NCBI GenBank assembly: GCA_023663725.1
Contig: JAMPGX010000016.1
Coordinates: 1-64,000, forward strand
From: a bacterium
GTDB lineage: Bacteria > Bacillota > Clostridia > Lachnospirales > Lachnospiraceae
Direction of reading: 5' to 3'
Length of the DNA: 64,000 bases
Of the stretch, positions 34,215 through 55,092 are shown in pieces (the first letter of the stretch is position 1; every line of letters begins with the position of its first letter). The translations under genes were made by a program, and so were the position numbers. The notes below the pieces were generated by a model. The model worked only from the letters and a program-made list of their open reading frames with translations. It was not told the DNA's origin and made no database searches.

Positions 34215-35285
34215 ATGGTGGAGAGAGGGAGCATTTTAATTGTAGAGAGGGACGGGGAGGAACGGAAAGCGCTCGAAGAGCTGTTGGTGAAAGAATATGA
34301 TATAGTGACGGCCGACGATGGCAAGCAGGCGCTCAGCGAGATGCAGCGGAGGCGGAACGAGCTTGCGGCAGTGATATTGGATTGGGAAACATCCGCGGTC
34401 AGCGCGTTCCAACTGCTTCAGGTGATGCAGGCCAGAGGACTGATGGAGGACATCCAGGTATTTGTCACTACTTCGCAGGTCGACCCTGAGATTGACAAAA
34501 AGGTGTACGCTCTGGAGGTGAAGGCGGTCGTGCGCAAGCCCTATGAGGACATGGCGGTGCGCCGACAGATATTGGACCGTCTGAGAGAAGCGGCGGAGCG
34601 GAGAGTTCTGCGCCAGGAGGTCAAAGAGAACAAGCAGTTGTTGGAGGAGAGTCAAAAGAAGCTGGAGGGCTTTTATGGCAGCCTGTTGGATGCGATTGGG
34701 ACTATAATGGAATACCGTGTTTCCGAGTCAGACCAGCATGTGAGGCGCATTAAGGGATTTGCCCGTATCATGGCGGTGGCCTACCGCAATCAGTTCCCGA
34801 CAAGCGGTCTGAACGAGGAGGAAATCAACCGGATCGTCAGGGGATCGGTAATCCATGATATCGGGAAAATAGCGGTTCCGGACACCATACTGTTGAATCC
34901 TGCAAAGCTTACGGAGGATGAGACGCAGATTCTGAGAAGCCACACGACCAAGGGCGAGGAGATCGTGCGGCTCCTTAAGGATGTGCAGGATGAAGAACAG
35001 CTCAGAGTGTCCTGTGAGATATGTCGTTGGCATCACGAACGCTATGACGGAGGCGGTTATCCGGACGGGCTGGAGGGTGATGAAATTCCAATTTCCGCTC
35101 AGATTGTAGCCATTGTGGATGTGTATGATGAGCTGGTTTCAGAGCGAATCTCCAAAAAGCCCTATGACAAGGCGACGGCGTACAGCATGATCATGAAGGG
35201 CGAGTGCGGAGCATTCGCGCCAAAGCTTTTGCAGTGCTTTGAGTCCTCCAAGAAATTATTGGAATTATATTCCGACAACAATTGA
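34215..35285 (+). CDS. Response regulator with HD-GYP phosphodiesterase-type output domain
   Basis: The 356-residue protein has an N-terminal receiver domain (residues ~5-125; likely phosphoacceptor Asp in VILDWETSA, partner Lys in VVRKPYED), a linker coiled coil, and a C-terminal HD domain. The HD part shows QHVRRIKGFARIMA, VIHDIGKIAVPD and HHERYDGGGYPDGL, matching the HD-GYP subfamily that hydrolyses cyclic di-GMP. It would couple a phosphorelay to c-di-GMP turnover and thus motility. No histidine kinase is adjacent. It starts 57 bp after fapA, and its 3' end precedes the sigma-28-like promoter of flgM. Confidence 0.9.
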   Translation: MVERGSILIVERDGEERKALEELLVKEYDIVTADDGKQALSEMQRRRNELAAVILDWETSAVSAFQLLQVMQARGLMEDIQVFVTTSQVDPEIDKKVYALEVKAVVRKPYEDMAVRRQILDRLREAAERRVLRQEVKENKQLLEESQKKLEGFYGSLLDAIGTIMEYRVSESDQHVRRIKGFARIMAVAYRNQFPTSGLNEEEINRIVRGSVIHDIGKIAVPDTILLNPAKLTEDETQILRSHTTKGEEIVRLLKDVQDEEQLRVSCEICRWHHERYDGGGYPDGLEGDEIPISAQIVAIVDVYDELVSERISKKPYDKATAYSMIMKGECGAFAPKLLQCFESSKKLLELYSDNN

Positions 35286-35357
35286 TGCAATGCCGTATAT
35301 GGGCGGACGCCTGTATGCGGCATTTGTGTCCCGCTGGGATAAATATGCCGAAGCCTC

Positions 35358-35384
35358 TAAAGTATTTTGCCTTTTGTCCGATAA
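35358..35384 (+). promoter_or_regulatory. Sigma-28 (SigD/FliA) type promoter before flgM
   Basis: TAAA (35358-35361), a 15-bp spacer, then TCCGATAA (35377-35384), one base from the canonical GCCGATAA. It would drive the late flagellar operon and be silenced by its first product, FlgM. Confidence 0.8.
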
Positions 35385-35431
35385 CAATAATAACAAGAAT
35401 GATGGAGCATTCTGGAAAGGAGGAGTCGGAT

Positions 35432-35710
35432 ATGAGAATAGAGGCTTACAATCAAGTACAGCAGTTATATCAGGCCAAGCATGTGAATAAGGCTCAGAAG
35501 TCTGCGGCGGTAGCCAAGGCGGACAGGATGCTGCAGATCAGCAGTTTGGGCAAGGACATTCAGACTGCCAAGGCAGCAGTTGCCTCTGCTCCTGATATTC
35601 GTGAGGAGTTAACGGCTCCGATCAAGGCGAGGATACAGGACGGAACCTATGGAGTCAGCAACGAGAGCTTTGCCGAGAAGCTGATGCAGAAGTACACGGA
35701 AATGAGGTAA
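35432..35710 (+). CDS. flgM: Anti-sigma-28 factor FlgM
   Basis: FlgM binds and inhibits the flagellar sigma factor until the hook-basal body is complete, then is exported. The 92-residue protein begins MRIEAYNQVQQLYQA, a common FlgM opening in Clostridia, and has the C-terminal sigma-binding part PDIREELTAPIKARIQDGTYGVSNESFAEKLMQKY. The start at 35432 follows AAAGGAGGAG; the longer frame upstream is not coding. A sigma-28-like promoter lies 48 bp upstream, giving a feedback loop. flgN follows after 6 bp. Confidence 0.92.
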   Translation: MRIEAYNQVQQLYQAKHVNKAQKSAAVAKADRMLQISSLGKDIQTAKAAVASAPDIREELTAPIKARIQDGTYGVSNESFAEKLMQKYTEMR

Positions 35711-36257: not shown

Positions 36258-37994
36258 ATGTCATTAATGTCGAGTCTATATATCGGAGCATCCGGATTAC
36301 AAACCAGTCAAAATGCGCTGAATACCACAGCGCATAATCTTTCTAACGAGGGCACTACAGGCTACACGCGCCAGCAGGTGCAACAGGCGGCCAGGCACTA
36401 TGTGACCCTGTCGGTGAACCCGCATTCTGTCGCGAACAAGCAGACAGGTCTGGGAACCGTTTATTCCAGTGTAAAACAAGTTAGAGATTATTTCCTGGAT
36501 AAGACATACCGCAAGGAATCCGGTCGGAGTATGTTTTACCAGGTGTCTACGGAGACCATGGAGGAGGTGGAGAGTCTGCTTGGCGAGATGAACCGAGAGG
36601 CTTTCCAGACTACCATGGGCGAGTTCTGGTACTCTGTACAGGAGCTGGCCAAGACGCCGTCGAGTTCTGTGAATCAGGGGCTCTTTGTGCAGCGTGCGGA
36701 GGAGTTCCTGGAGCGCGCCGTTCATATTTATGACGGGTTGTGCTCCTACCAGGACAATATGAATCAGAAGATCAAGCAGCATGTGAATCTGATCAATAAT
36801 TATGGCAAGCAAATTCTGGAGCTGAACAATCAGATCAGGAATATAGAGGTTGGCGGCATAGAGCATGCTAACGACCTGCGGGATGTCCGCAACCAGATTC
36901 TGGATGAGTTGGGAAAGATGGCGGATATCTCCTTCACGGAGAACATGTACGGCGATGTGTCCGTGCAGATTGAGGGTGTGGATTTTGTCAAGGGATCCAT
37001 GTGCTATGAGATCGCGCTGGACACGGACGAGGTGACCGGCTTCTACACACCGTTCTGGCCGCTGAACGCCACATTTACTGAGCGGGAGGACGGCACCAGA
37101 GACTATGATATTCGGGGCGCCGAGGTATTCGATATGTCTCTGGAGATTTCCACGGATCTGGATACGGATATCGGCGGACTGAAGGCTATGATGCACGCCA
37201 GAGGAGATCACAGGGCAGATTACACAGACATTGTAAAAGACTATGATGCTGTATCCCAGTCTGTGATTATGAATATGCAGGCGGAGTTTAACCAGCTGAT
37301 CCACAATGTGGCAGACAAGATCAACGGCATCTTGGCGGAGGCGGCAGGGGTGACGGAGATAACGCTGGCGGACGGCACGAAGGCGAAGGGCTGTCTGGAT
37401 GATCCGAACGGATATATGCGCCATGAGGATGGCAGCCCGATTCAGCTCTTTGCCAAGATTACCACGCCGGGTTATGAGAAAAAGACAGGGGCCGACGGCA
37501 AGACCTATTGGGTATATCAGGAGGAGCATCTGGGCAATCCGGACCCGAGCAAGGGAGATCCCACGCGCCCTGAGACGGTTTACAGCCTGAAGAATATACA
37601 GATTGATCCCGAGCTGAAGAAGTCCCCCTCAATATTGGGCTTTATGAAGGGAGAGGTCGAGGACAGGGCCACGGCGGAGGCGATCAGCAACGCCTTCACG
37701 GAGGAGATATACACGCTCAACCCCAATGTCAAGAAACCCCTGTCATTCATGGGGTACTATGATGATCTGGTAGCACAGATCGCGAACAGCGGCTCTGCGT
37801 TCCGTTGCATCTATGAGAATCAGCAGAACACATTGGAGGCCACATACAATGCCAGGGAGCAGATCGTGGGCGTGTCCTCGGATGAGGAGTTGTCCAACAT
37901 GATCAAGTTCCAGAATGCCTATAACGCCTCCAGCCGCTATATCAATGCCATCAGCGAGATGCTGGAGCATATCATCAACACGCTGGGCGTGTAA
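36258..37994 (+). CDS. flgK: Flagellar hook-associated protein 1 (FlgK), first copy
   Basis: FlgK forms the first junction ring between hook and filament. The 578-residue protein has the conserved N-terminus SLYIGASGLQTSQNALNTTAHNLSNEGTTGYTRQ (given in part: SLYIGASGLQTSQNALNTTA then NLSNEGTTGYTRQ) and the C-terminal coiled coil MIKFQNAYNASSRYINAISE that pack into the rod-like core. The middle is the variable outer domain. AGAGGTGATG precedes the start. It is followed 56 bp later by a second flgK, an arrangement I associate with motile Lachnospiraceae. Confidence 0.93.
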   Translation: MSLMSSLYIGASGLQTSQNALNTTAHNLSNEGTTGYTRQQVQQAARHYVTLSVNPHSVANKQTGLGTVYSSVKQVRDYFLDKTYRKESGRSMFYQVSTETMEEVESLLGEMNREAFQTTMGEFWYSVQELAKTPSSSVNQGLFVQRAEEFLERAVHIYDGLCSYQDNMNQKIKQHVNLINNYGKQILELNNQIRNIEVGGIEHANDLRDVRNQILDELGKMADISFTENMYGDVSVQIEGVDFVKGSMCYEIALDTDEVTGFYTPFWPLNATFTEREDGTRDYDIRGAEVFDMSLEISTDLDTDIGGLKAMMHARGDHRADYTDIVKDYDAVSQSVIMNMQAEFNQLIHNVADKINGILAEAAGVTEITLADGTKAKGCLDDPNGYMRHEDGSPIQLFAKITTPGYEKKTGADGKTYWVYQEEHLGNPDPSKGDPTRPETVYSLKNIQIDPELKKSPSILGFMKGEVEDRATAEAISNAFTEEIYTLNPNVKKPLSFMGYYDDLVAQIANSGSAFRCIYENQQNTLEATYNAREQIVGVSSDEELSNMIKFQNAYNASSRYINAISEMLEHIINTLGV

Positions 37995-38050: not shown

Positions 38051-40027
38051 ATGCCTTCACAATTTTTTGGATTAAATATCGCGTATAAAGGGCTGTTGGC
38101 CAGCAATGCGGCCATGAACACCACGGCCAACAACATTGCCAATGTACAGACGGAGGGCTATAGCCGCCAGCGGGTCGTACAGCAGGCCAGTCAAGCTATT
38201 CGGGTGTTTCAGACCTACGGCTGCGCCGGCGCCGGCGTGGACACGCTTGCCATCGAGCGGGTGCGGGATGAGTTCTATGACGTCAAGTACTGGAACAACA
38301 ATGCCAAAGCAGGCGAGTACGACGTCAAGCAGTACTATATGAAACAGATCGAGGCCTATTTTGACGACGACGGAATCAGTTCGGGCTTTAAGTCTATCTT
38401 TGATAAGATGATGATCGGCGGCATACAGGAGTGGATGAAGGTCGCCGAGAGCACTAACGGCAAGAAGCAGTTTATCGGTACGGCGGGAGATCTGACAGAG
38501 TATTTCAATGGATTGGCCGGCAATCTGCAGAAGCTCCAGAAGGATGTGAATCAGGAGATCAAGCTGAAGGTGGATGAGATCAATTCCATAGCCGGCGAGA
38601 TCGCCACTCTGAATAAGCAGATCAATGTGGTGGAGCTCTCCGGCAGCAAGGCCAATGAGCTGCGGGACCGCAGAAGTCTGCTGCTGGATCAATTGTCGCA
38701 GATCGTGGATGTCGAGGTGAGGGAGACACCCATCATGGATCTGAATCAGCCGGACCGAGAGACGGGAGCGCATCGCTTCATCGTGAAGATTGCCGGAGGC
38801 CAGATGCTGGTGGACGGCAATGAGTACAACGGACTGGAGTGCAGGGCACGTTCCAGCTATGAGAAGGTCAATCAGACGGACGTAGACGGACTGTATGATG
38901 TCTACTGGAAGGACGGACAGCAGTTCAATCTGTACAATTCCGCCATGGGGGGCAATCTGCAGGGTTTGATCCAGATGCGGGATGGCAACAACGGGGAATA
39001 TTTTAATGGTAAGATCGAGTCAATCGGCAGGACTCCAGATGATAAGAATGATACGGTGACCATCAGTGTGAGTCAGAATTACCTCAAGGATCTCAATTTT
39101 TGTAATCTGTCCGATCAGGGTGGCATCATCACGCTGGGAAACAGGGACTACTACTATGATTCCTGGACGTATCAGCGCAGCTACGACGCCAACGGCGAAC
39201 CGGTGTGCAGCTATACCTTTACCCTGTCGAACGACAGCGAGCGCAATGCCCAGCGCCTGACCAACGACCGCGTGGGCAAGACGGCCAGCGTGGGGCCGGA
39301 GCTGAAGTATCAGGGCGTGCCCTACTATATGAATCAGATGAATACCTGGATTCGTACCTTTGCCCAGAAATTTAATGATACTCTGAAGAGTGGATACAAT
39401 ACTTACAATGAGAAGGGCTGTAATTTATTTACAGGCGACATGCCTGCCTCGGAGGAGCAGTTCCAGTTTGGGGATGATTGCAGGTATGATATCTATACCT
39501 ACGAGGCATACCAGAAGAGAGTGCAGGAGCTGGTGGCGGCGGGAAAGAGTCAGGCGGATGCGGAAAAGGAGGCTGTTCTGAAGGTGACGGCCAGCGATGA
39601 CAGCTATTACCGGCTCACGGCCATGAACTTCAGTGTGTCAACTGCCGTGGAGGAAGATCCGGATCTGCTCGCCCACCGCAAGAACAAGGGCGACGGTGTG
39701 GCTCAGGATGATCTGTTGGAGGAGGAGCTGAAATCGATCGCGACGGACAAGGAGAAGATGAGCTTCCGGGGCGGCACGGCCAATGAATTTCTGCAGTGTA
39801 TCCTTGAGGATGTGACGCTCAATGCCAGCCGCGCCTACACGTTCCAGAAGAATTTCAGCGATATCAGCGATATCATCAATACGCAGCGCATGTCTATCTC
39901 CGGTGTGGATGAGGACGAGGAGGCGGTCAATATGGTGAAGTTCCAGCACGCCTACAATCTCTCCTCCAAGATGATCCAGACTCTGACGGAGATATATGAC
40001 CGGTTGATTCTGGAGACCGGTGTGTAA
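38051..40027 (+). CDS. flgK: Flagellar hook-associated protein 1 (FlgK), second copy
   Basis: This 658-residue paralogue shares the FlgK end motifs: GLNIAYKGLLASNAAMNTTA with NIANVQTEGYSRQR at the N-terminus, and VNMVKFQHAYNLSSKMIQTL at the C-terminus. Its middle is longer and unlike that of copy 1, with inserted segments around residues 320-400 and 470-560. Two junction proteins could form alternative or mixed junction rings, or one could act at a different site. AAAAGGAG precedes the ATG. Confidence 0.92.
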   Translation: MPSQFFGLNIAYKGLLASNAAMNTTANNIANVQTEGYSRQRVVQQASQAIRVFQTYGCAGAGVDTLAIERVRDEFYDVKYWNNNAKAGEYDVKQYYMKQIEAYFDDDGISSGFKSIFDKMMIGGIQEWMKVAESTNGKKQFIGTAGDLTEYFNGLAGNLQKLQKDVNQEIKLKVDEINSIAGEIATLNKQINVVELSGSKANELRDRRSLLLDQLSQIVDVEVRETPIMDLNQPDRETGAHRFIVKIAGGQMLVDGNEYNGLECRARSSYEKVNQTDVDGLYDVYWKDGQQFNLYNSAMGGNLQGLIQMRDGNNGEYFNGKIESIGRTPDDKNDTVTISVSQNYLKDLNFCNLSDQGGIITLGNRDYYYDSWTYQRSYDANGEPVCSYTFTLSNDSERNAQRLTNDRVGKTASVGPELKYQGVPYYMNQMNTWIRTFAQKFNDTLKSGYNTYNEKGCNLFTGDMPASEEQFQFGDDCRYDIYTYEAYQKRVQELVAAGKSQADAEKEAVLKVTASDDSYYRLTAMNFSVSTAVEEDPDLLAHRKNKGDGVAQDDLLEEELKSIATDKEKMSFRGGTANEFLQCILEDVTLNASRAYTFQKNFSDISDIINTQRMSISGVDEDEEAVNMVKFQHAYNLSSKMIQTLTEIYDRLILETGV

Positions 40028-43021: not shown

Positions 43022-45154
43022 ATGGCAATGAGACTTTCCGGATTGATGTCCGGCATGGATACTGAGAGCATCATCTCACAGCTCGTGGAGGCCAGGAAGA
43101 CCAAGGTTGACAAGACCAAGAAGGCGCAGACCAAGCTGCAGTGGAAGCAGGATGCCTGGAAGGACCTGAACACCAAGCTGAAGAATCTGCAGAGCAAATA
43201 TCTGAGCAGCATGCGTTTCACCTCTGCATACAGCAAGAAGGTGACTAAGGTGTCTGATCCCAACGCAGTCAGTGTGATCACCGGTGAGGACGCTGTGAAT
43301 GGCGTGCAGTCGTTAAAGATCGATAAGCTGGCTAAGACGGGTTATCTGACCGGCGGCTCCATCGAGAAGGAGGATGGCACCAGATTTAACGCGATGTCTA
43401 AGTTGAGCGATCTGGGTGTGACTGGCTCAGGTAAGATCAATATAAACACTGGAAGCACTTCTGTGGATATTCAGGTAGATGGCAATACTACGATCTCCGA
43501 TGTGCTGACCCAGTTGAAGAACGCCGGACTCAACGCGAACTTTGACGAGAACAATCAGAGATTCTTTATCAGCTCCAAGGAATCGGGAGCAAAGAGTGAT
43601 TTCAGTCTCACCGCTCTGGATCAGGGAGGATTGGATGCGCTCAAGGCGTTGGGTGTACAGGAGTCATTTGAGGCTGATCCGGACAAAAAGGGTGCTGTCC
43701 AGAAGGAATATGAGAAGTATGCTGGCTATTATGTCGTCGGCGACAGAGATGCGACTCTTGCTAACATGAGTTCTCTGATCGCTAAGGATGTACAGTCCAA
43801 GACGGACAGTTATCTGGCAAAGTACAAGAGCCTGGTGGAGTCCAGGGAGGCAGACCAGAAGACGATAGATAAACTCGAAGCGCAATATAAGGGCGCCGAC
43901 GGCAGTAGCACATTGAAGTCCAAGAAGGAATATGAGGATGCTCTCAAGGCCAAGAATGAGGAGATTGAGGCCAAGGAGAAGGCTCTGAAGGAGGAGTCTG
44001 ATCCGGATCAGAAGAGAAAGCTTGAGAAAGAGCTGGTAGATCTGAAGAAAGAGGCTGACGAGCTCACGACCCAGAAGAACGACAGGGAGACTCTGGACAG
44101 CAAGAAGGCAGCTGTTGCCCAGGCGGATAAGGATATCGCCAATATAGAGAGCTATGTGAATATCACCGAGACCGAGAAGGATGGACAGAAGGTCTATTCC
44201 GCGGAGGCGAAGGATAAGCTGAAGGAAGAGGTGGCGGATCGCTTCTATCAGAAGGCGGAGTTTGCTGACAGCGTAGTCAAGAATCCCAGTATGATATCCG
44301 GCAACGCGACTAAGGTCAATGGCCAGGATGCGGAGATTGAACTGAATGGAGCAAAGTTTACCAGTAAAGATAACACCTTTAAGATCAATGGGCTTACCTT
44401 TACCGCTCTGAATGAGACCAACGGCAATCAGGTCACTGTGACGACTCAGCAGGATACCGACGGTATCTATGATATGGTCAAGAATTTCCTGAAGGAGTAC
44501 AATGCCATCATCAATGAGATGGATAAGCTGTATAACGCGGATTCGGCCAAGGGCTACGAGCCTCTGACCTCCGAGGAGAAGGAAGCTCTGTCCGACAGCG
44601 AGGTGGAGGAGTACGAGAAGAAGATCAAGAATGCTCTGCTGAGAAGGGATGAGAATCTGAGCAGTGTCAGTTCGACTTTGCGGGCCGCAATGTCAGGTGG
44701 TATTGAGATTGGCGGCAAGACTATGTATCTGCATGATTTCGGTATTGAGAATCTGGGATATTTCGAGGCGCCTGACAACGAGAAGAATGCTTATCATATT
44801 TTTGGCGATCCTGATGATCCAGATACTGCAGGTAAATCAGATGTGCTCAAGGGCATGATTGCCAACGATCCGGACACCGTGATTAGCTTCTTTACCAAGT
44901 TGTCTCAGAACATGTATGATGAAATGACCAACATGTCCAAGTCTGTCAACGGATATCGCAGCTTCGGCAGCTTCTATGATGATAAGAAGATGAAGTCCGA
45001 TTATGACAACTACACGGTCAAGATCAAGGAACAAGAGAAAAAGCTGAACGAATATGAGGATAAGTGGTACAAGAAGTTTGCCGCAATGGAGACTGCTCTG
45101 TCCAAGATGCAGAACAGTGCCAATGCTGTTACTTCCCTGTTAGGAGGCTCATAA
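43022..45154 (+). CDS. fliD: Flagellar filament capping protein FliD (HAP2)
   Basis: FliD caps the growing filament and folds incoming flagellin. The 710-residue protein has the conserved N-terminus MRLSGLMSGMDTESIISQLV, the FliD_N and FliD_C regions (TIEL-type strands, GIYDMVKNFLKEYNAIINEM near residue 480), and a C-terminal coiled coil. Between about residues 250 and 390 lies a long charged coiled-coil insertion (ESREADQKTIDKLEAQY, LKSKKEYEDALKAKNEEI, LKKEADELTTQKNDRE) not found in short FliDs. AGGAGG precedes the ATG. fliS follows after 1 bp. Confidence 0.93.
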   Translation: MAMRLSGLMSGMDTESIISQLVEARKTKVDKTKKAQTKLQWKQDAWKDLNTKLKNLQSKYLSSMRFTSAYSKKVTKVSDPNAVSVITGEDAVNGVQSLKIDKLAKTGYLTGGSIEKEDGTRFNAMSKLSDLGVTGSGKININTGSTSVDIQVDGNTTISDVLTQLKNAGLNANFDENNQRFFISSKESGAKSDFSLTALDQGGLDALKALGVQESFEADPDKKGAVQKEYEKYAGYYVVGDRDATLANMSSLIAKDVQSKTDSYLAKYKSLVESREADQKTIDKLEAQYKGADGSSTLKSKKEYEDALKAKNEEIEAKEKALKEESDPDQKRKLEKELVDLKKEADELTTQKNDRETLDSKKAAVAQADKDIANIESYVNITETEKDGQKVYSAEAKDKLKEEVADRFYQKAEFADSVVKNPSMISGNATKVNGQDAEIELNGAKFTSKDNTFKINGLTFTALNETNGNQVTVTTQQDTDGIYDMVKNFLKEYNAIINEMDKLYNADSAKGYEPLTSEEKEALSDSEVEEYEKKIKNALLRRDENLSSVSSTLRAAMSGGIEIGGKTMYLHDFGIENLGYFEAPDNEKNAYHIFGDPDDPDTAGKSDVLKGMIANDPDTVISFFTKLSQNMYDEMTNMSKSVNGYRSFGSFYDDKKMKSDYDNYTVKIKEQEKKLNEYEDKWYKKFAAMETALSKMQNSANAVTSLLGGS

Positions 45155-45155
45155 C

Positions 45156-45545
45156 ATGGCAATGCCCGATGCATATGCACAGTATAATAACAGCAAGATA
45201 CTCACAGCATCCCCAGCGGAACTGACCCTGATGCTCTATGAGGGGGCGATCAAGTTCTGTAACATAGCCATTGTAGCGGTGGAGCAGAAGGATATTCCCA
45301 AAGCGCATACGCATATTGTCAAGACCCAGAAAATTATTGATTATCTGCGGCAGACCCTTGATATGAAGTATCCGGTGGCTCAAGATTTTGAGAACATCTA
45401 TGTGTACTTGTCACAGCGTCTGGTGGAGGCTAACTTCAAAAAGGATAAGGATATCCTGGAGGAGGTCAATGGGCACCTGCGTTCAGTGAGAGATACCTGG
45501 AAAGAGGTTATGCGGATCAATCAGGTGAAAGGGGCTAATGGATGA
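45156..45545 (+). CDS. fliS: Flagellin export chaperone FliS
   Basis: FliS binds the C-terminus of flagellin in the cytoplasm, prevents premature polymerisation and docks on FlhA. The 129-residue four-helix protein shows DAYAQYNNSKILTASPAELTLMLYEG (residues ~4-29) and the VEANFKKDKDILEEV and LRSVRDTWKEV helices. It follows fliD by 1 bp, and its stop overlaps the next start (ATGA), indicating translational coupling along the operon. Confidence 0.95.
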   Translation: MAMPDAYAQYNNSKILTASPAELTLMLYEGAIKFCNIAIVAVEQKDIPKAHTHIVKTQKIIDYLRQTLDMKYPVAQDFENIYVYLSQRLVEANFKKDKDILEEVNGHLRSVRDTWKEVMRINQVKGANG

Positions 45546-46018
45546 AGAGCCAGCTAAGTATATTGCAGGAGAGTCTGACAGCAAAGCGCCAGGTGCTTTT
45601 GGAGATACAGGAGTATAATCGAAAGCAGGAGGAGGTCTTCAGCTCAGAAGAAGTAGATATGTCTCTCTTTGATGAGGCGATTGAGGAGAAAGGCCGATTG
45701 ATTGAGCGGTTGACCCAGTTAGATGACGGCTTTGAGGCCATGTATCAGAAGTTGGCCCGTGAGTTAGAGAATAATCGGGAAAAGTATGCGGAGCAGATTC
45801 GGATGCTACAGCAGCAGATCAAGGAGATTACCGATCTGGGGGTATCCATTCAGGCTCAGGAGGCGAGAAATAAAGCCCTGATTGAGAGCTATTTTTCAAG
45901 GGAACGCAAGAATATGCACAAGAGTCTCCAGAATTCTACCAAGGCATATAATTTTTATAAAAATATGTCAGGCTTGAATGCAGCGAGCAATCAGTCCTCT
46001 TATGACAGTAAGCAATAA
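45542..46018 (+). CDS. FliT-like flagellar chaperone (coiled-coil)
   Basis: A 158-residue mostly helical protein with QLSILQESLTAKRQVLLEIQEYNRKQEEV at its N-terminus and a long coiled coil through residue ~110; an S/N/Y-rich tail follows. Position directly after fliS with a 4-bp overlap, size and helical content fit the FliT/FlgN class of export chaperones, FliT being the FliD chaperone. Sequence similarity to FliT is too weak for me to assign the symbol. A terminator follows. Confidence 0.65.
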   Translation: MKSQLSILQESLTAKRQVLLEIQEYNRKQEEVFSSEEVDMSLFDEAIEEKGRLIERLTQLDDGFEAMYQKLARELENNREKYAEQIRMLQQQIKEITDLGVSIQAQEARNKALIESYFSRERKNMHKSLQNSTKAYNFYKNMSGLNAASNQSSYDSKQ

Positions 46019-46040: not shown

Positions 46041-46075
46041 AACCCTGCCATATCATAGGAAATGGCAGGGTTTCT
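46041..46075. terminator. Terminator between the flagellar operon and the divergent-end regulator gene
   Basis: AACCCTGCCAT (46041-46051) pairs with ATGGCAGGGTT (46062-46072). T residues flank the right arm; it could serve both convergent genes. Confidence 0.75.
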
Positions 46076-46105: not shown

Positions 46106-47026
46106 TTAACGAAGCTCTTCTGACAGGGTGGCAATGGCCGTTTGGAGCTCTCCAGCTTCAGATATGGGATGCTCCTCCAGATAGCCGATGATGTAGTCCA
46201 ACCGGTTGATCGGTGTTCCGGCGGAGACAAGACCGGCCAATACATGCTGTAGCATCGCCAGACTGACCTTCTGTGGAACGATATTGTCTACGGCTGCCGG
46301 ATAGCGGCGCCACACCAGATTGACCAGATCAGCAGTGATCTGGCGGTTCAGAATCTGGTCATAATTGTGCAGAATAGTCTCTGCCAGATGTGTTATGATG
46401 CAGTCCATGGCGGAGAATTCGATACAGCCCTCCGGCGGCACAGCCTGTTTTTCCATCCATTTTCCCTCCGGCCAGACTGCACGCCACTCAGCCGCGGGAA
46501 GCAGCTCCTCCCGCACATAGAAATATTTGGGATATTCGGATTCGCTCTGGGCGGCAATCGTTCTTCCGTTCAGCAGTATTCGGTATTCCTGATCTCCCAG
46601 GTTCAGACAGTCCCGCAGTCGTATGATGGGGACCATGATTCCCATCGTGTCCGCCAATCTCACTCGCATCTGATGAATCTTCTCGTAATGGTCGGCATTT
46701 TCTTCGATCAGCATCTCAACCAGATTCTTGCCGACCTCCAGTGTCAGAACATCCTTTTGCAGCGCATTCTCTACTTCCGTCTGTCTCTGAACAGACTCCT
46801 GGTCGCACTGGGAGATGGAAGAAGCCTGGTGACTCAGCAGATAGTCCGTAGTGCAGTCCATCAGTTGAGCGATAGAGCGGATCATCTCCGCATCGGGCAG
46901 ACTGGCGCCAGTCTCCCACTTTGACACTGCCTGGGATGTAACCCCCAGTTTTTCAGCAATTTTCTGCTGTGTGTAGCCACGGTCCTGACGAAGTCGTTCA
47001 AATCGTTCCGCAAATTCTGAAAGCAT
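46106..47026 (-). CDS. XRE-type HTH regulator fused to an FlhA C-terminal (FHIPEP)-like domain
   Basis: The 306-residue protein has an HTH_3 domain (residues ~8-63: GYTQQKIAEKLGVTSQAVSK, WETGASLPDAEMIRSIAQLM). From about 95 to 290 it closely resembles the cytoplasmic domain of the flagellar export protein FlhA. Stretches supporting this are LTLEVGKNLVEMLIEE, HYEKIHQMRVRLADTMGIMV, PIIRLRDCLNLGDQEYRI, LLNG, ITHLAETILHNYDQILNRQI, RYPAAVDNIVPQKVSLAMLQ, HVLAGLVSAGTPINRLDYII. In FlhA the equivalents are the VVPPIRIRDN, EYxIKIKG, ATHLxEVIKKHAHELLGRQ and LVP-LS-QKVLQNLL-VPIRDL motifs. No transmembrane part is present, so it is a soluble DNA-binding protein. AGGAGG fixes the start at 47026; the longer frame is non-coding. 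It converges on the flagellar late operon. Confidence 0.85.
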   Translation of the reverse strand: MLSEFAERFERLRQDRGYTQQKIAEKLGVTSQAVSKWETGASLPDAEMIRSIAQLMDCTTDYLLSHQASSISQCDQESVQRQTEVENALQKDVLTLEVGKNLVEMLIEENADHYEKIHQMRVRLADTMGIMVPIIRLRDCLNLGDQEYRILLNGRTIAAQSESEYPKYFYVREELLPAAEWRAVWPEGKWMEKQAVPPEGCIEFSAMDCIITHLAETILHNYDQILNRQITADLVNLVWRRYPAAVDNIVPQKVSLAMLQHVLAGLVSAGTPINRLDYIIGYLEEHPISEAGELQTAIATLSEELR

Positions 47027-47112
47027 ATGATTTTCCTCCTGTGATAAGATGTAGTGAATTAGTCTGTTCCCCTTTACACAGATAGAATAACACAAAAACG
47101 GCGCAAATGCCA

Positions 47113-47165
47113 CCAACTGTTGAGATGATATCAACACAACTGATAGTTGTGACAAATATAGTTGG
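47113..47165. promoter_or_regulatory. Nested palindromes between the HTH-FlhA_C gene and the GH25 gene
   Basis: CACAACTgatAGTTGTG (47135-47151) is a perfect 7-bp dyad. Outside it, CCAACT (47113-47118) mirrors AGTTGG (47160-47165), and GTTGAGATGATATCAAC forms a third partial dyad. These are candidate operators for the adjacent HTH protein, just upstream of both genes. Confidence 0.5.
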
Positions 47166-47186: not shown

Positions 47187-47215
47187 TTGACAGTGAAGGG
47201 ACTTTTGCGTATAGT
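47187..47215 (+). promoter_or_regulatory. Sigma-A promoter for the GH25 gene
   Basis: TTGACA (47187-47192), a 17-bp spacer and TATAGT (47210-47215), 81 bp before the start codon. Confidence 0.7.
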
Positions 47216-47295: not shown

Positions 47296-48822
47296 ATGGA
47301 TTTTGATGAAAATCGGGATGAAACAGGTAGGGAGCCGTACAGATGGATCAAGCTGATTCCGTTTGCAGTGGCGGTCGTCTTTATTGTGATCATACTGGTG
47401 GTGATGGTTCTGCGGAACCGGATGGACAGAGAGCACAATGGGATAGGCGAGGATAACGTAAATAGTTCGACAGAGGGGACGCAGCAGAATGTCTTGGGAA
47501 CAGAGGGAGATGAGACGATAGAAGTCCGAGATCCTCAGGAAACAATGTCGCAGGAACAGGGCAGTCAGGTGGATGTGAGGCAATTGCTGACTTCCGATCG
47601 GGTGCGGGAAGAGGAACGAACAACTGTGGGAATTGATGTTTCACGGTATCAGGGGACGATAGACTGGAGCCAGGTGGCGGATTCCGGGGTTGATTTTGCG
47701 ATGATCAGAGTCGGATACCGAAGTGCAGACGAAGACAGGGGCATCTACGCCGACAGTAACGCCCGTTATAATATGCAGGAGGCTCAGGCTGCGGGGATAC
47801 AGGTGGGTGTGTACTTTTTTTCCACGGCGGCCAGCGAGGAGGAGGCGCGGGAGGAGGCTCTGTGGGTGGCGGAGTACATCGCGCAGTATCAGATCACATA
47901 CCCTGTGGCCTTTGACTGTGAAGGGTATGAGCAGGAGGGCAGTCTGCTGTATGAGTTGGGAAATGAAAAGAGGACAGATATCGCCATTGCCTTTATGCAG
48001 GAGATATATGACAAAGGGTATACGCCGATGTTCTATGGCTCCAGCTATGCCATGACGGGCAGCAGGCATTGGAATATGGACAGGATCGAGCAGAGCTACA
48101 AGGTCTGGGTGTCCCAGTATCCGGCATTGCCTTATCCACAGACGGAGCAGTCCTCCTATGAAGGTTTTCATGCTATGTGGCAGTATACCAATCAGGGAAG
48201 TGTGCCTGGAATCTCACAGCCTGTGGATGTAAATGTGGCTTATTTTGGATATGAGGGTGCGGCGGAGGCTCTGGATGGGCAGGCTCCGGATCAGGCCCAG
48301 GCTGATGTGGAAGCCCTGATGAATTTTCAGGAGGTGGATGAGATGGTGACGGCCAAGGAGTCCACCAATCTGCGGGACATTCCCAGCCAGGGGGAGGACA
48401 GTACAGTGCTGTGGACGCTGCAAAACGGGGACAGTGCGCGGCGCACCGGCGTCAGTGACAGCGGCTGGTCTCGGCTGGTCTATCAGGACCGCGTATGTTA
48501 TGCAGTGACGAACTTGTTGACTACAGACCTGTCTCCCAATGTGCCACAGCCAACGCCGACACCGGAGGAGGACGGCATCAAGACCCAATTTACGTCCTGC
48601 AACGAGTTGATGACTGCCAAGATTGAGACAAATCTGCGGGCGCTGCCGAGCGTGACCAATCCGGAGGCGGTGGTGGTGGCGACGATCCGCTATGGGGATG
48701 TAGTGGTGCGCACGGGAATCAATACAGACCTTGGGTGGTCTCGGGTGGAGTATGAGGGACAGGTGCTCTATTGTGTGAGCAGTTATCTGACGTCGGAGGT
48801 GGAGTCAGAGCAGGCGCAGTGA
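47296..48822 (+). CDS. Membrane-anchored GH25 lysozyme with two SH3-like domains
   Basis: The 508-residue protein has a short cytoplasmic tail, one membrane segment (residues ~18-39, IPFAVAVVFIVIILVVMV), and a Ser/Glu/Gln-rich spacer. The glycoside hydrolase family 25 muramidase domain (~110-300) has GIDVSRYQGTIDWSQV with the first catalytic Asp, VGVYFFSTAA, and PVAFDCEGYE with the Asp/Glu pair. Two SH3b modules follow (near 350-410 and 440-505: TAKESTNLRDIP, TAKIETNLRALPS). It would cut peptidoglycan beta-1,4 bonds outside the membrane. AGGAGT precedes the ATG. Confidence 0.92.
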   Translation: MDFDENRDETGREPYRWIKLIPFAVAVVFIVIILVVMVLRNRMDREHNGIGEDNVNSSTEGTQQNVLGTEGDETIEVRDPQETMSQEQGSQVDVRQLLTSDRVREEERTTVGIDVSRYQGTIDWSQVADSGVDFAMIRVGYRSADEDRGIYADSNARYNMQEAQAAGIQVGVYFFSTAASEEEAREEALWVAEYIAQYQITYPVAFDCEGYEQEGSLLYELGNEKRTDIAIAFMQEIYDKGYTPMFYGSSYAMTGSRHWNMDRIEQSYKVWVSQYPALPYPQTEQSSYEGFHAMWQYTNQGSVPGISQPVDVNVAYFGYEGAAEALDGQAPDQAQADVEALMNFQEVDEMVTAKESTNLRDIPSQGEDSTVLWTLQNGDSARRTGVSDSGWSRLVYQDRVCYAVTNLLTTDLSPNVPQPTPTPEEDGIKTQFTSCNELMTAKIETNLRALPSVTNPEAVVVATIRYGDVVVRTGINTDLGWSRVEYEGQVLYCVSSYLTSEVESEQAQ

Positions 48823-51740: not shown

Positions 51741-53108
51741 ATGAATCAAAGGAGTCGGATAGTTATAATAGTGTTTCTTGTTGGCATGCTGCTTCTTGTG
51801 GGATGCGGTAGGGAGATAGAAGAAGGCAGAGAGCCATCGGAAGAAATAACGGTATCTGCGGACGAAGCGGTGGAAGAGCCGGAGAAGCATTTTCAGTATG
51901 ATGACCGCAAGCTGTACGGTTATATGTATGAGGGGATAGATGTGCCTGAGAAGGTCGTAAGCGAGGAGCAAGCCAGAGCGGAGGGGAGGGTTATCTTGAC
52001 CCTGCAGGAGTCCTTCGCAAGCAGTTGGTTGGCTGAATCGGTTAAAGGCTTTAACAGGCAGAGCACAGATTACTTCGTTAGTCTCCAGGAGAGCGGCTTT
52101 GCGGGACAATCAGGTGTTAAGGACCGGATGGCAGTGGAAATCATGGCGGGAAGAGGTCCGGATATGTTCACAGGAGATATGTTTGAAGTCAATGAAAGCA
52201 TTCTCAAGAAGGGGGTATTGGTGGACCTGGCGGCAGGGCTGGACGCTATGGGGATCACGGAGGAGGAGTACTTCCCTTCTGTCTGGGCGCTGCGGATGGG
52301 GGATGCAGTTTACGGGGTATGTCCTACAGCGTGGGTGGAGAGATACTGGATACTGGAATCCGTGTTGGGGAGCCGAGAGACACCGGATATAGAGACGCTG
52401 GTGGAGAAGCTCTATACCTATCCGGACCAGAAGGCGGTGTGGAGGCCTCATATAAAAGCTGGAAGAATATTGCAATATTATCTGTTGGGAGGTTCGGAGG
52501 ATCTGTGGGGGATGATCAACTGGGAGGAAGGGAAGTGCGATTTTTCAGGGGAGCTTTTTGCCAAGATGCTTGAGATAGCCAAACGCTATGCCGATCCGGA
52601 GGGAAAGAGTGAGGAGGGGATAATGGATTATTATTGTCCCACGAGCGATTTATATTCTATGGGGAGTGAGAAAGTGATCATTGATTTTCCCTTTGACGAT
52701 GGAAATTATCCTTATTACAGGCCATCTCATTCACTGATGTTGAACGCGAATTCTGATTCCGAGCATCAAAAGGGAGCCTGGGAGTTCTTGAAATATATTT
52801 TGGGAGAGGAGGGGCAGGGGTATTGCTCATCCTTCTCCCCAGCCAACAAGGAAATGTATAGAAGCTACTATCAGTGGCGACTGGATCAGATAGAAGCGGG
52901 AGTATCGGATTCTATACTGACCAAGGAGAGGGTGGAGGAAGGCTTCGCCAGCGCGGAACAGGCTCGTTACTTCCCAGTGCGCACCACCACAATACTGGAA
53001 ATCATCTGTGAGGAAGCCCAGTCCTTCACGGAGGGGGATAAGCCGCGGGAGGAGGTGTGCAAGCTGATCCAGAACAGGGTGCAGCTCTACCTGGATGAGA
53101 CAAGATAA
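51741..53108 (+). CDS. Extracellular solute-binding-like lipoprotein, copy 1
   Basis: The 455-residue protein has a lipoprotein signal (IVIIVFLVGMLLLVGC, lipobox LVGC). The mature part resembles family 1 extracellular solute-binding proteins: ESVKGFNRQSTDYFVSLQES (F-x-x-x-x-x-Y region), EIMAGRGPDMFTGDMFEVNE, and the C-terminal LMLNANSDSEHQKGAWEFLKYIL, like sugar-binding proteins. It should be anchored to the outside of the membrane. No permease or ATPase of an import type lies next to it, so it may work with a transporter elsewhere or in sensing. The start follows GAGAAGGGGA. Confidence 0.82.
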   Translation: MNQRSRIVIIVFLVGMLLLVGCGREIEEGREPSEEITVSADEAVEEPEKHFQYDDRKLYGYMYEGIDVPEKVVSEEQARAEGRVILTLQESFASSWLAESVKGFNRQSTDYFVSLQESGFAGQSGVKDRMAVEIMAGRGPDMFTGDMFEVNESILKKGVLVDLAAGLDAMGITEEEYFPSVWALRMGDAVYGVCPTAWVERYWILESVLGSRETPDIETLVEKLYTYPDQKAVWRPHIKAGRILQYYLLGGSEDLWGMINWEEGKCDFSGELFAKMLEIAKRYADPEGKSEEGIMDYYCPTSDLYSMGSEKVIIDFPFDDGNYPYYRPSHSLMLNANSDSEHQKGAWEFLKYILGEEGQGYCSSFSPANKEMYRSYYQWRLDQIEAGVSDSILTKERVEEGFASAEQARYFPVRTTTILEIICEEAQSFTEGDKPREEVCKLIQNRVQLYLDETR

Positions 53109-53592: not shown

Positions 53593-53678
53593 CAACGGAT
53601 GTTAGTGAGTATACCATATAGAGAAGCAGGTTATAGGGCTCAGAACGAAGCAACGCCCTAGTGGATGACAGTTTGCGA

Positions 53679-53706
53679 GTCGGAGGGGGTTCCCTCCGAC
53701 ATTTTA
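53679..53706 (+). terminator. Terminator/attenuator hairpin in unit 2
   Basis: GTCGGAGGG (53679-53687) pairs with CCCTCCGAC (53692-53700), followed by ATTTTAT, in the same place as in unit 1. Confidence 0.75.
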
Positions 53707-53733
53707 TATTGTATTAGAAGGGGAGTGAATAGC

Positions 53734-55092
53734 ATGAATCGTAAGGGCCGGATGGCTGTAACGGCGTTTCTTTTGGGCTTGCTGCTTTTTGCCGGGTGCG
53801 GCAGGAGGGCAGAGGGAAACGGAGAACTGTCAACTGAGGGAATAGAGCAAGTGGAGGAGTCAGAGAAGCACTTCGAGTATGATGACCGCAAGCTATATCC
53901 CCATTTCTATGAGGGGATAAATGTGCCTGAGAGGGTTGTTAGTGAAGAGCAGGCCAGGGCGGAGGGAAGGATGATCTTGACTCTGCAGGAGTCTCGTGCA
54001 AGCTCCTGGCTGATTGAGTCGGTCAAAGGCTTTAACAGACAGAGTACAGATTATTTTGTCATTCTCCAGCAGAGCGGTTGGGGACCTGAGAAAATCGATT
54101 GCATGGACCGAATGGCGGTGGAGATCATGGCGGGGAGAGGTCCGGATATGTTCACAGGCGATATGTTTGAGGTCAATGAAAGCATTCTCAAGAAGGGAAT
54201 TGTGGTAGACCTGTCTGCAGGGCTGGACGCCATGGGGATCACGGAGGAGGAGTACTTCCCTTCTGTAAGGGCATTGCAGATGGGGGATGCGGTTTATGGG
54301 GTGTGTCCTACTGCTCTCGTGGAGGGATACTGGATATTGGAATCGGTGTTGGGGAGCAGGGAAATGCCGGATATCGAAACACTGGTGGAGAAGCTCCTTG
54401 CCTATCCTGACCAGGATGCGGTTTGGAGGCCTTATGCAACTACTACGACAATTCTCTATTATCTGCTGGGTGGCTCGGAGGATATGTGGGGGATGATCGA
54501 CTGGGAGCAAGGGAAATGCGATTTCTCAGGGGATCTATTTGTCAAGATGCTTGAGATAGCCAAACGCTATGACGATCCAGAGGGGAAGAGCGAGGAGGGG
54601 ATAATGGGATTTTACAGGCCTTTAAACCTGGTGGGGGAATCGCTTGAGGAGGGGAAGGTGGAAATTGACTTTCTCTTTGATGACGGAAATTATCTTTTTT
54701 TCAGGCCGAGTTATTCGCTGATGTTGAACGCAAATTCGGACTCCAAGCATCTGGAGGGAGCCTGGGAATTTGTGAAATATATTTTGGGAGAAGAGGGGCA
54801 GGGATATTGTACATCCTTTCCCCCCGCCAACAAGGAAATGTGTAGGAGCTTCTATCAGTGGGTGTTGGACCTGATAGAAGAGGGGCAATCAGAAGTTGTG
54901 CTGACGGAGGAAATATTGGAGGAGGGAATGCATAGCACAGAACGAGGCCGCTACTTCCCTGTGCGCACCACCAAAATACTGGAAATCATCTGTGAGGAAG
55001 CCCAGTCCTTCACGGAGGGGGATAAGCCGCGGGAGGAGGTGTGCAGGCTGATTCAAAACAGGGTGCAGCTCTATCTGGATGAGACAAGATAA
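53734..55092 (+). CDS. Extracellular solute-binding-like lipoprotein, copy 2
   Basis: The 452-residue paralogue of the 51741 protein has the lipobox region LLGLLLFAGC and the same landmarks: SVKGFNRQSTDYFVILQQSG, EIMAGRGPDMFTGDMFEVNE, LMLNANSDSKHLEGAWEFVK and the C-terminal EAQSFTEGDKPREEVCRLI. The start was set at 53734 after GGGGAGTG, because the longer frame would run through the terminator hairpin. Divergence in the ligand-facing middle suggests the two copies bind different ligands or are drifting apart. Confidence 0.82.
   Translation: MNRKGRMAVTAFLLGLLLFAGCGRRAEGNGELSTEGIEQVEESEKHFEYDDRKLYPHFYEGINVPERVVSEEQARAEGRMILTLQESRASSWLIESVKGFNRQSTDYFVILQQSGWGPEKIDCMDRMAVEIMAGRGPDMFTGDMFEVNESILKKGIVVDLSAGLDAMGITEEEYFPSVRALQMGDAVYGVCPTALVEGYWILESVLGSREMPDIETLVEKLLAYPDQDAVWRPYATTTTILYYLLGGSEDMWGMIDWEQGKCDFSGDLFVKMLEIAKRYDDPEGKSEEGIMGFYRPLNLVGESLEEGKVEIDFLFDDGNYLFFRPSYSLMLNANSDSKHLEGAWEFVKYILGEEGQGYCTSFPPANKEMCRSFYQWVLDLIEEGQSEVVLTEEILEEGMHSTERGRYFPVRTTKILEIICEEAQSFTEGDKPREEVCRLIQNRVQLYLDETR

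Follow-up and report, generated by a model that had tools for sequence, protein, structure and literature searches.

The DNA analysed here, a 64,000-nt Lachnospiraceae stretch called the window, carries at 46106–47026 an XRE regulator with a soluble domain derived from FlhA_C, the cytoplasmic portion of the export-gate protein FlhA of the flagellum, as sequence comparisons confirm. Our working model, to which we give a probability of about 40%, is that the FlhA-derived D1–D3 of this regulator docks to the export apparatus, that finished gates titrate it, and that it controls its own gene. The gene and its parts are located as follows.

46106–47026, minus strand: XRE–FlhA_C fusion gene, 306 amino acids plus stop
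46838–46996, minus strand: HTH_3 (XRE) DNA-binding domain, residues 11–63 (PF01381, 52.2 bits)
46154–46816, minus strand: FlhA_C-derived domain, residues 71–291, with D1, a degenerate D2, D3 and no D4 (PF00771, PDB, hhalign)
46412–46558, limits approximate, minus strand: degenerate D2 segment, about residues 157–205, lacking the chaperone-cleft motif of FlhA (alignments)

The HTH_3 match exceeds its Pfam cut-off of 23 bits, in agreement with the XRE-type HTH predicted originally at about residues 8–63, and this part matches 7t8i, 1adr and 1b0n in the PDB. The Pfam FHIPEP profile (PF00771) aligns its positions 310–534 to residues 71–291 with 102.4 bits (cut-off 29.1, E 3.1e-29). The NCBIfam FlhA model TIGR01398 covers residues 72–304 at E 1.3e-29, with a score of 103 bits that is far under the full-length equivalog cut-off of 772. 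The SctV model, homologous to FlhA, covers residues 67–289 at E 5e-9.

Among PDB chains, those of FlhA match the C-terminal half, with 6ai2 the best of them at E 7.4e-15, and a six-sequence profile of the fusion adds the injectisome relative LcrD. By hhalign, the fusions match FlhA with probabilities of 98.7% (clade A) and 99.2% (clade B). Clade A comprises the window, five members of its genus and G173. None of these matches covers the FlhA membrane part; nothing before profile position 310 is matched and the HTH is there instead.

No unrelated family scores comparably over residues 95–290, so the FlhA match proposed for them stands. A complete ordinary flhA lies on another contig of the window genome. 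Given the HTH_3, FHIPEP and PDB matches and this separate normal flhA, the architecture first noticed from the sequence alone is upheld.

Passages of PMC5932034, PMC8166844 and PMC9431611 divide FlhA_C into the subdomains D1 to D4 and place its chaperone cleft, including Asp456, Phe459 and Thr490, between D1 and D2. We aligned the fusions to the FlhA of the window genome and seven other Lachnospiraceae FlhA sequences, with six clade A rows (window and five others) in the cleft comparison. The first D1 segment and D3 have about 25% identity to that own FlhA in both clades. D2 is shortened in clade A (18% identity, 46–47 of 49 residues) and lost in clade B (3–16 of 49 residues in 49 rows), and by alignment and hhalign the protein ends after D3, before D4. 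The motif order of FlhA_C claimed earlier is thus present for D1 and D3 but not for the degenerate D2 or the missing D4.

The motif E-P-S-F-x-L-P-A-x-W is kept in all eight FlhA sequences but replaced in each of the six clade A rows aligned, its P-S-F-x-L-P-A part being gone there. Phe459 is gone from the six rows whichever alignment is taken, the acidic stand-in for Asp456 is alignment-dependent (L176 or E180), and Thr490 is kept in three rows. The glycine of the FlhA GYXLI switch is kept in all six.

According to the original prediction, FlgN, FliS or FliT-type chaperones, whether free or carrying cargo, would be bound by the FlhA_C domain, which would link expression to export status. It drew on the following neighbourhood.

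45156–45545, plus strand: fliS (PF02561, 139.6 bits)
45542–46018, plus strand: ‘FliT-like’ or FlgN-like small protein, convergent with the fusion gene (PF05130, 25.9 bits, cut-off 30.5)
46041–46072, either strand: likely two-way terminator, a perfect 11-bp inverted repeat with a 10-nt loop between the convergent genes (by eye)
47296–48822, plus strand: divergent GH25 lysozyme-like gene (PF01183, 98 bits; sub-threshold SH3 match)

Besides fliS, the neighbours include fliD, a flgL-like flagellin-family gene, two flgK, flgN and flgM, and the window also holds fliW. The predicted chaperone and cargo neighbours are therefore real as to fliS, fliD, the flgL-like gene, flgK and flgN, but the ‘FliT-like’ one has only a sub-threshold FlgN match. 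In six of six close relatives (L033–L038), the fusion gene converges on the FliT-like and fliS genes, and fliD follows in five of them, the sixth contig ending at fliS. The neighbours in G173 differ from those in the window. There the next upstream gene (L039:8562–9338) encodes a 258-residue protein that matches only the FliD C-terminal domain (FliD_C 37.8 bits, cut-off 25.4).

These neighbours, together with the D2 remnant in clade A and in a fusion from another family (G609), speak for chaperone binding. On the other hand, Phe459 is lost with its motif, D4 is absent, D2 is degenerate in clade A, and clade B and the MerR type described below do without D2. In FlhA itself, F459A weakens the chaperone complexes according to a passage of PMC5932034. 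Chaperone sensing through the FlhA cleft is not supported in view of these losses, and we regard chaperone binding by this domain as unlikely.

In the export-gate ring, D1 and D3 of FlhA contact the linker of the next subunit, as passages of PMC8166844 describe. Docking of the regulator to the export apparatus is favoured because the cleft is gone, D1 and D3 remain, and D1 appears captured again by a MerR domain. However, the counterpart of the FlhA linker has 8% identity, only about a third of the FlhA-invariant positions in D1 and D3 are kept, and in the second D1 segment of clade B this falls to 11%. The ring interface may therefore be gone too.

Another reading places the action on the gate, where D1–D3 would enter or cap the FlhA ring to dampen export and DNA binding would only hold the protein's own level. 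Keeping D1 and D3 while losing D2 and D4 is what a poisoned subunit might look like, and the operator found only at its own promoter (see below) would fit as well. Yet the HTH of the family is strongly conserved, and the linker and FlhA-invariant residues are poorly kept, so we consider it very unlikely.

The MerR type is found in G491 (L232:5360–6094) and G505 (L233:9108–9857), both from the same other family as G609. In each, a MerR domain is followed by a D1-like FlhA_C piece in a protein of about 245 residues. The FHIPEP matches are to D1 only and sub-threshold (23.3 bits in G491 and 20.4 in G505, cut-off 29.1), and the best FlhA chain in the PDB matches the G491 protein at E 4.6e-4. Both genomes have a full FlhA too.

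This type is apparently a second, separate capture of FlhA_C by a regulator, and it suggests that D1 may serve as a sensor. As MerR regulators carry varied C-terminal sensors, those of G491 and G505 likewise join MerR to an FlhA D1 match. They differ from the window gene in their DNA-binding domain and in having D1 only, and they are not closely related to it.

A D1-like FHIPEP match of 21.1 bits in a 204-residue frame was also seen in G502, of a third family (L228/L234). An apparent MerR start lies upstream in another frame, and the gene is probably broken. The FHIPEP search gave no match for FlhA in this genome (86% complete). G609, G491, G505 and G502 stand outside the co-occurrence tests given below.

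The XRE fusion is spread over many Lachnospiraceae. An FHIPEP search of 397 genomes of the family and a closer look at 24 flagged ones gave short HTH–FlhA_C proteins in at least 15 genomes of 15 genera, the window genome included, with two candidates scored per genome. Of 121 genomes in the window genus, 46 contain a short-frame match of the fusion kind. We examined 43 loci from 42 of the 45 other genomes with a match, and 39 have HTH and FlhA_C in one frame. The wide recurrence foreseen for the HTH–FHIPEP architecture is thus borne out by both surveys.

Genus loci without the full frame include L118 and L148 near contig ends, L123 without the N-terminal part (a whole copy, L124, is in the same genome) and L142 5661–6560, a broken copy in G815. 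Elsewhere in the family, fusion remains are found in G174 (L158) and G349 (L157) as broken or truncated copies. In G174 (76% complete), FlhA and FliP are missing too, which would be consistent with decay of the gene alongside the flagella.

Among the matches listed for the order (392 genomes) and the phylum (299 genomes), the clear fusions belong to Lachnospiraceae. Such fusions are nevertheless not confined to this family, as a closer look at eight genomes with two or odd matches showed both the MerR type and an XRE fusion outside it. The latter is a 327-residue XRE–FlhA_C protein of G609, from another family of the order, with an FHIPEP score of 88.5 bits.

In a tree of 69 rows, which includes 13 FlhA sequences and leaves out G609, all 13 FlhA fall on one side of a 100/100 branch, which is most simply read as the XRE fusion having arisen once. 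Because three of the clade B rows cluster with clade A, D2 would have been lost at least twice or partly regained. The end branches reach 1.3.

We rejected a mobile-element gene. Among 336 matched plasmid records, the best 10 are FlhA or unannotated with 25–31% identity, and 80% query coverage is reached in only two of the 336 plasmid and none of the 75 phage records matched. A short unverified faecal phage scaffold matches fusion residues 6–132.

A flhA fragment that became attached to an XRE gene by accident, or that is decaying, could explain the missing D4 and the broken or truncated copies in some genomes. However, dN/dS is 0.06–0.18 in clade A (14 of 21 pairs with computable dS, many of them near saturation, the other seven being saturated), and dN reaches 0.46. 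The two parts share one frame in most genus loci as counted above, and the operator described next is kept in seven of seven clade A loci. With dN/dS and the recurrence across genomes against it, a pseudogene or chance fusion has next to no probability.

Upstream of the gene, we read the following elements from the sequence.

47137–47149, minus strand: putative operator O1, CAACTATCAGTTG, dyad upstream of the fusion gene
47110–47122, minus strand: putative operator O2, CAACAGTTGGTGG, dyad upstream of the fusion gene
47084–47089, minus strand: putative extended −10 (TGT-TATTCT) of the fusion gene
47187–47215, plus strand: promoter-like TTGACA-17-TATAGT (11 of 12 consensus positions), pointing at the GH25 gene and not at the fusion gene

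The tandem dyads at 47110–47149 read CAACNNNNNGTTG, 14 bp and YAACAGTTNGTKG, with CAAC-N5-GTTG twice. Each of the seven clade A loci with upstream sequence, among them G173 with its unrelated neighbours, has the O1–O2 pair before the gene at the same 14-bp spacing, and the pair is seen nowhere else in 1.4 Mb of locus sequence. O2 varies to CAACAGTTGGTTG in five genus relatives and to TAACAGTTAGTTG in G173.

We scanned 11 whole genomes for the tandem pair with up to two mismatches. A perfect pair occurs exactly once per genome in seven of seven clade A genomes. The other matches are one two-mismatch site in G818 and the G733 site again on the other strand. In the four genus genomes without the fusion, no pair lies within two mismatches, and the reversed-control pair has two matches over the 11 genomes.

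A wider regulon was not borne out by the single sites, as relaxed O1 and O2 matches are mostly inside ORFs and the O1 count is near that of the reversed control. Relaxed O1 has 13 matches in the own genome versus 9 for the control. Two of the 13 are the window site, and the remaining 11 (10 places) are inside longest ORFs of unchecked coding status, that of L223 being maybe spurious. G733 has one more perfect O1, within a RecD-like ORF.

One-mismatch O2 has 25 matches in seven genomes, and six of the eight inspected are inside ORFs. The other two belong to the own genome, L200 at a gene end and L206 outside ORFs, about 230 bp upstream of a gene and with no O1 partner. The O1 and O2 patterns searched were not seen at flagellar operons. 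Since the operator is perfect only at the own promoter in the own genome, direct control of the flagellar operons finds no support in the sequence.

The operator is placed differently in two genus loci. In L112 2522–2686 (G814), the pair is about 160 bp upstream of the gene with extra O1/O2 copies about 120 bp beyond. In L110 1810–2190 (G818), repeat-rich DNA shifts it to about 390 bp upstream.

The T-n-n-TAT columns of the putative −10 are conserved in six aligned loci. The fusion promoter has no good −35, and O2 is near the −35 place. Sites near −38 (O2) and −65 (O1) would suit activation as well as repression. With tandem dyads at the gene's own promoter, the sequence supports autoregulation by the fusion at the predicted operator and possibly control of the GH25 muramidase gene.

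The promoter-like stretch toward the GH25 gene has similar counterparts by eye in L110, L108, L109 and L111. A GH25 homologue is upstream of the fusion in five of five genus relatives, adjacent in three and with at least one gene between in two. In the clade B locus L139 (G732), a GH25-like homologue is the next upstream gene, in the same direction as the fusion.

Carriers of the fusion mostly have flagellar export genes, as the following counts show, all with kinship ignored in their p values. Among the good genus genomes (completeness of 90% or more, contamination of 5% or less), FlhA is present in 21 of 21 carriers versus 25 of 36 non-carriers (p 0.004); the fusion of G715, counted among the 21, is cut at a contig end with its HTH not seen. 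Among all genus genomes, it is present in 42 of 46 versus 55 of 75 (p 0.02).

In the good family genomes, 12 of 12 carriers have FlhA or FliP versus 153 of 308 non-carriers with FHIPEP (p 4e-4). By FlhA alone it is 11 of 12 (p 0.006), because G272 has FliP without FlhA. FliP was sought in 12 chosen genomes, where the two non-carriers without FlhA are also without FliP. When genomes are matched by size (at least 3.4 Mb, from 299 genomes, tallied by hand), the ratio is 7 of 7 versus 35 of 61 (p 0.04), and FlhA alone gives 6 of 7 (p 0.23). G730 (87% complete, intact gene), G732 and G790 have the fusion without FlhA or FliP.

Core flagellar structural and chaperone genes are found around none of 56 other fusion loci (0/56, in the stretch around each locus). 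Three of these loci have HD-GYP or CheY-like matches, and a single FlhA match is the fusion itself. The stretches surrounding the G609 and MerR-type loci likewise show no flagellar neighbours. In clade B, the commonest cluster of shared neighbours is ABC ATPases (by eye), and the rest is mostly within-lineage synteny. Hence the association with flagellar genes that was predicted holds for the neighbourhood in close relatives and for the genome co-occurrence, but not for the other 56 loci.

The domain may now be only a dimerisation or small-ligand module, with the flagellar link arising indirectly from ancestry, genome size or a target useful to motile cells. We take this as possible though doubtful. 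The non-flagellar neighbourhoods, the perfect operator only at its own promoter, the weaker flagellar link in size-matched genomes and the high divergence (the dN and end branches given above) are all in its favour. Against it, flagellar export genes are present in every carrier of the family sample (12 genera) versus half of the non-carriers.

Returning to docking, the fusion would be a cytosolic one-component XRE-class regulator whose sensor half is a reduced FlhA cytoplasmic domain. Its dimer would bind O1 and O2 to control the fusion gene itself, with the divergent GH25 muramidase gene as a possible further target. The D1–D3 module would dock to FlhA itself or to a different component of the export apparatus, and assembled gates would change the amount of regulator free for DNA. 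Such a mechanism would be titration by a membrane machine and not chaperone sensing.

Titration of a transcription regulator by a membrane machine occurs in Mlc-PtsG and MalT-MalK, which the working model resembles by analogy. Flagellar gene control reads export through exported or chaperone-bound proteins, and FlgM-sigma28 and FliW-CsrA-FliS are checkpoints of flagellar export. The fusion, as proposed, would share with these checkpoints a tie to the export, but its candidate sensor is a derivative of the export gate, not an export substrate. A regulator built of a gate protein would take a different route from reading exported or chaperone-bound proteins, and there are hints here that flagellum assembly may be connected directly with the control of genes.

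A broader proposal, which we make tentatively and would not bet on, is a new one-component class. In it, FlhA_C would have been captured at least twice (D1–D3 by XRE, D1 by MerR), would have lost the cleft and D4, and would read gate assembly. If true, the gate itself would be the signal, rather than an exported anti-sigma factor.

With the XRE or Cro/C1 repressors such as P22 c2, the ICEBs1 XRE regulator and SinR, the fusion shares HTH_3 and has tandem dyads, a putative operator, at its own promoter, but its sensor domain derives from a type III export gate. With FlhA (FHIPEP, SctV superfamily), it shares homologous D1 and D3 and a remnant D2. Unlike FlhA, it is joined to a DNA-binding domain and is without the membrane domain, D4 and the chaperone-cleft motif. 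With D1 and D3 retained over evolution but D2 and D4 dropped, the fusion is a natural dissection of FlhA_C.

We found no described XRE–FlhA_C fusion in the open PubMed Central literature. To our knowledge, an XRE regulator with this sensor domain is previously undescribed, although automatic annotation may already name both domains. Flagellar control in Lachnospiraceae is, as far as we know, little studied. The fusion raises the testable question of whether a soluble FlhA_C relative binds the gate and thereby changes transcription.

Several other features of the window were observed. Two different flgK genes are back to back at 36258–37994 and 38051–40027, and their cross-matches in relatives have about 30% identity over the N-terminal 225 residues. 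FliD (43022–45154) is 710 residues long and contains an extended charged coil in its central part, and its relatives in L035 and L038 align at both ends only.

Directly upstream of flgM, a response regulator with an HD domain (HD-GYP-like) is encoded at 34215–35710. The flgM product itself has a long N-terminal extension, its FlgM domain being at 84–136 of 142 residues. Tandem close paralogues at 51741–53108 and 53665–55092 resemble, by eye, extracellular solute-binding lipoproteins.
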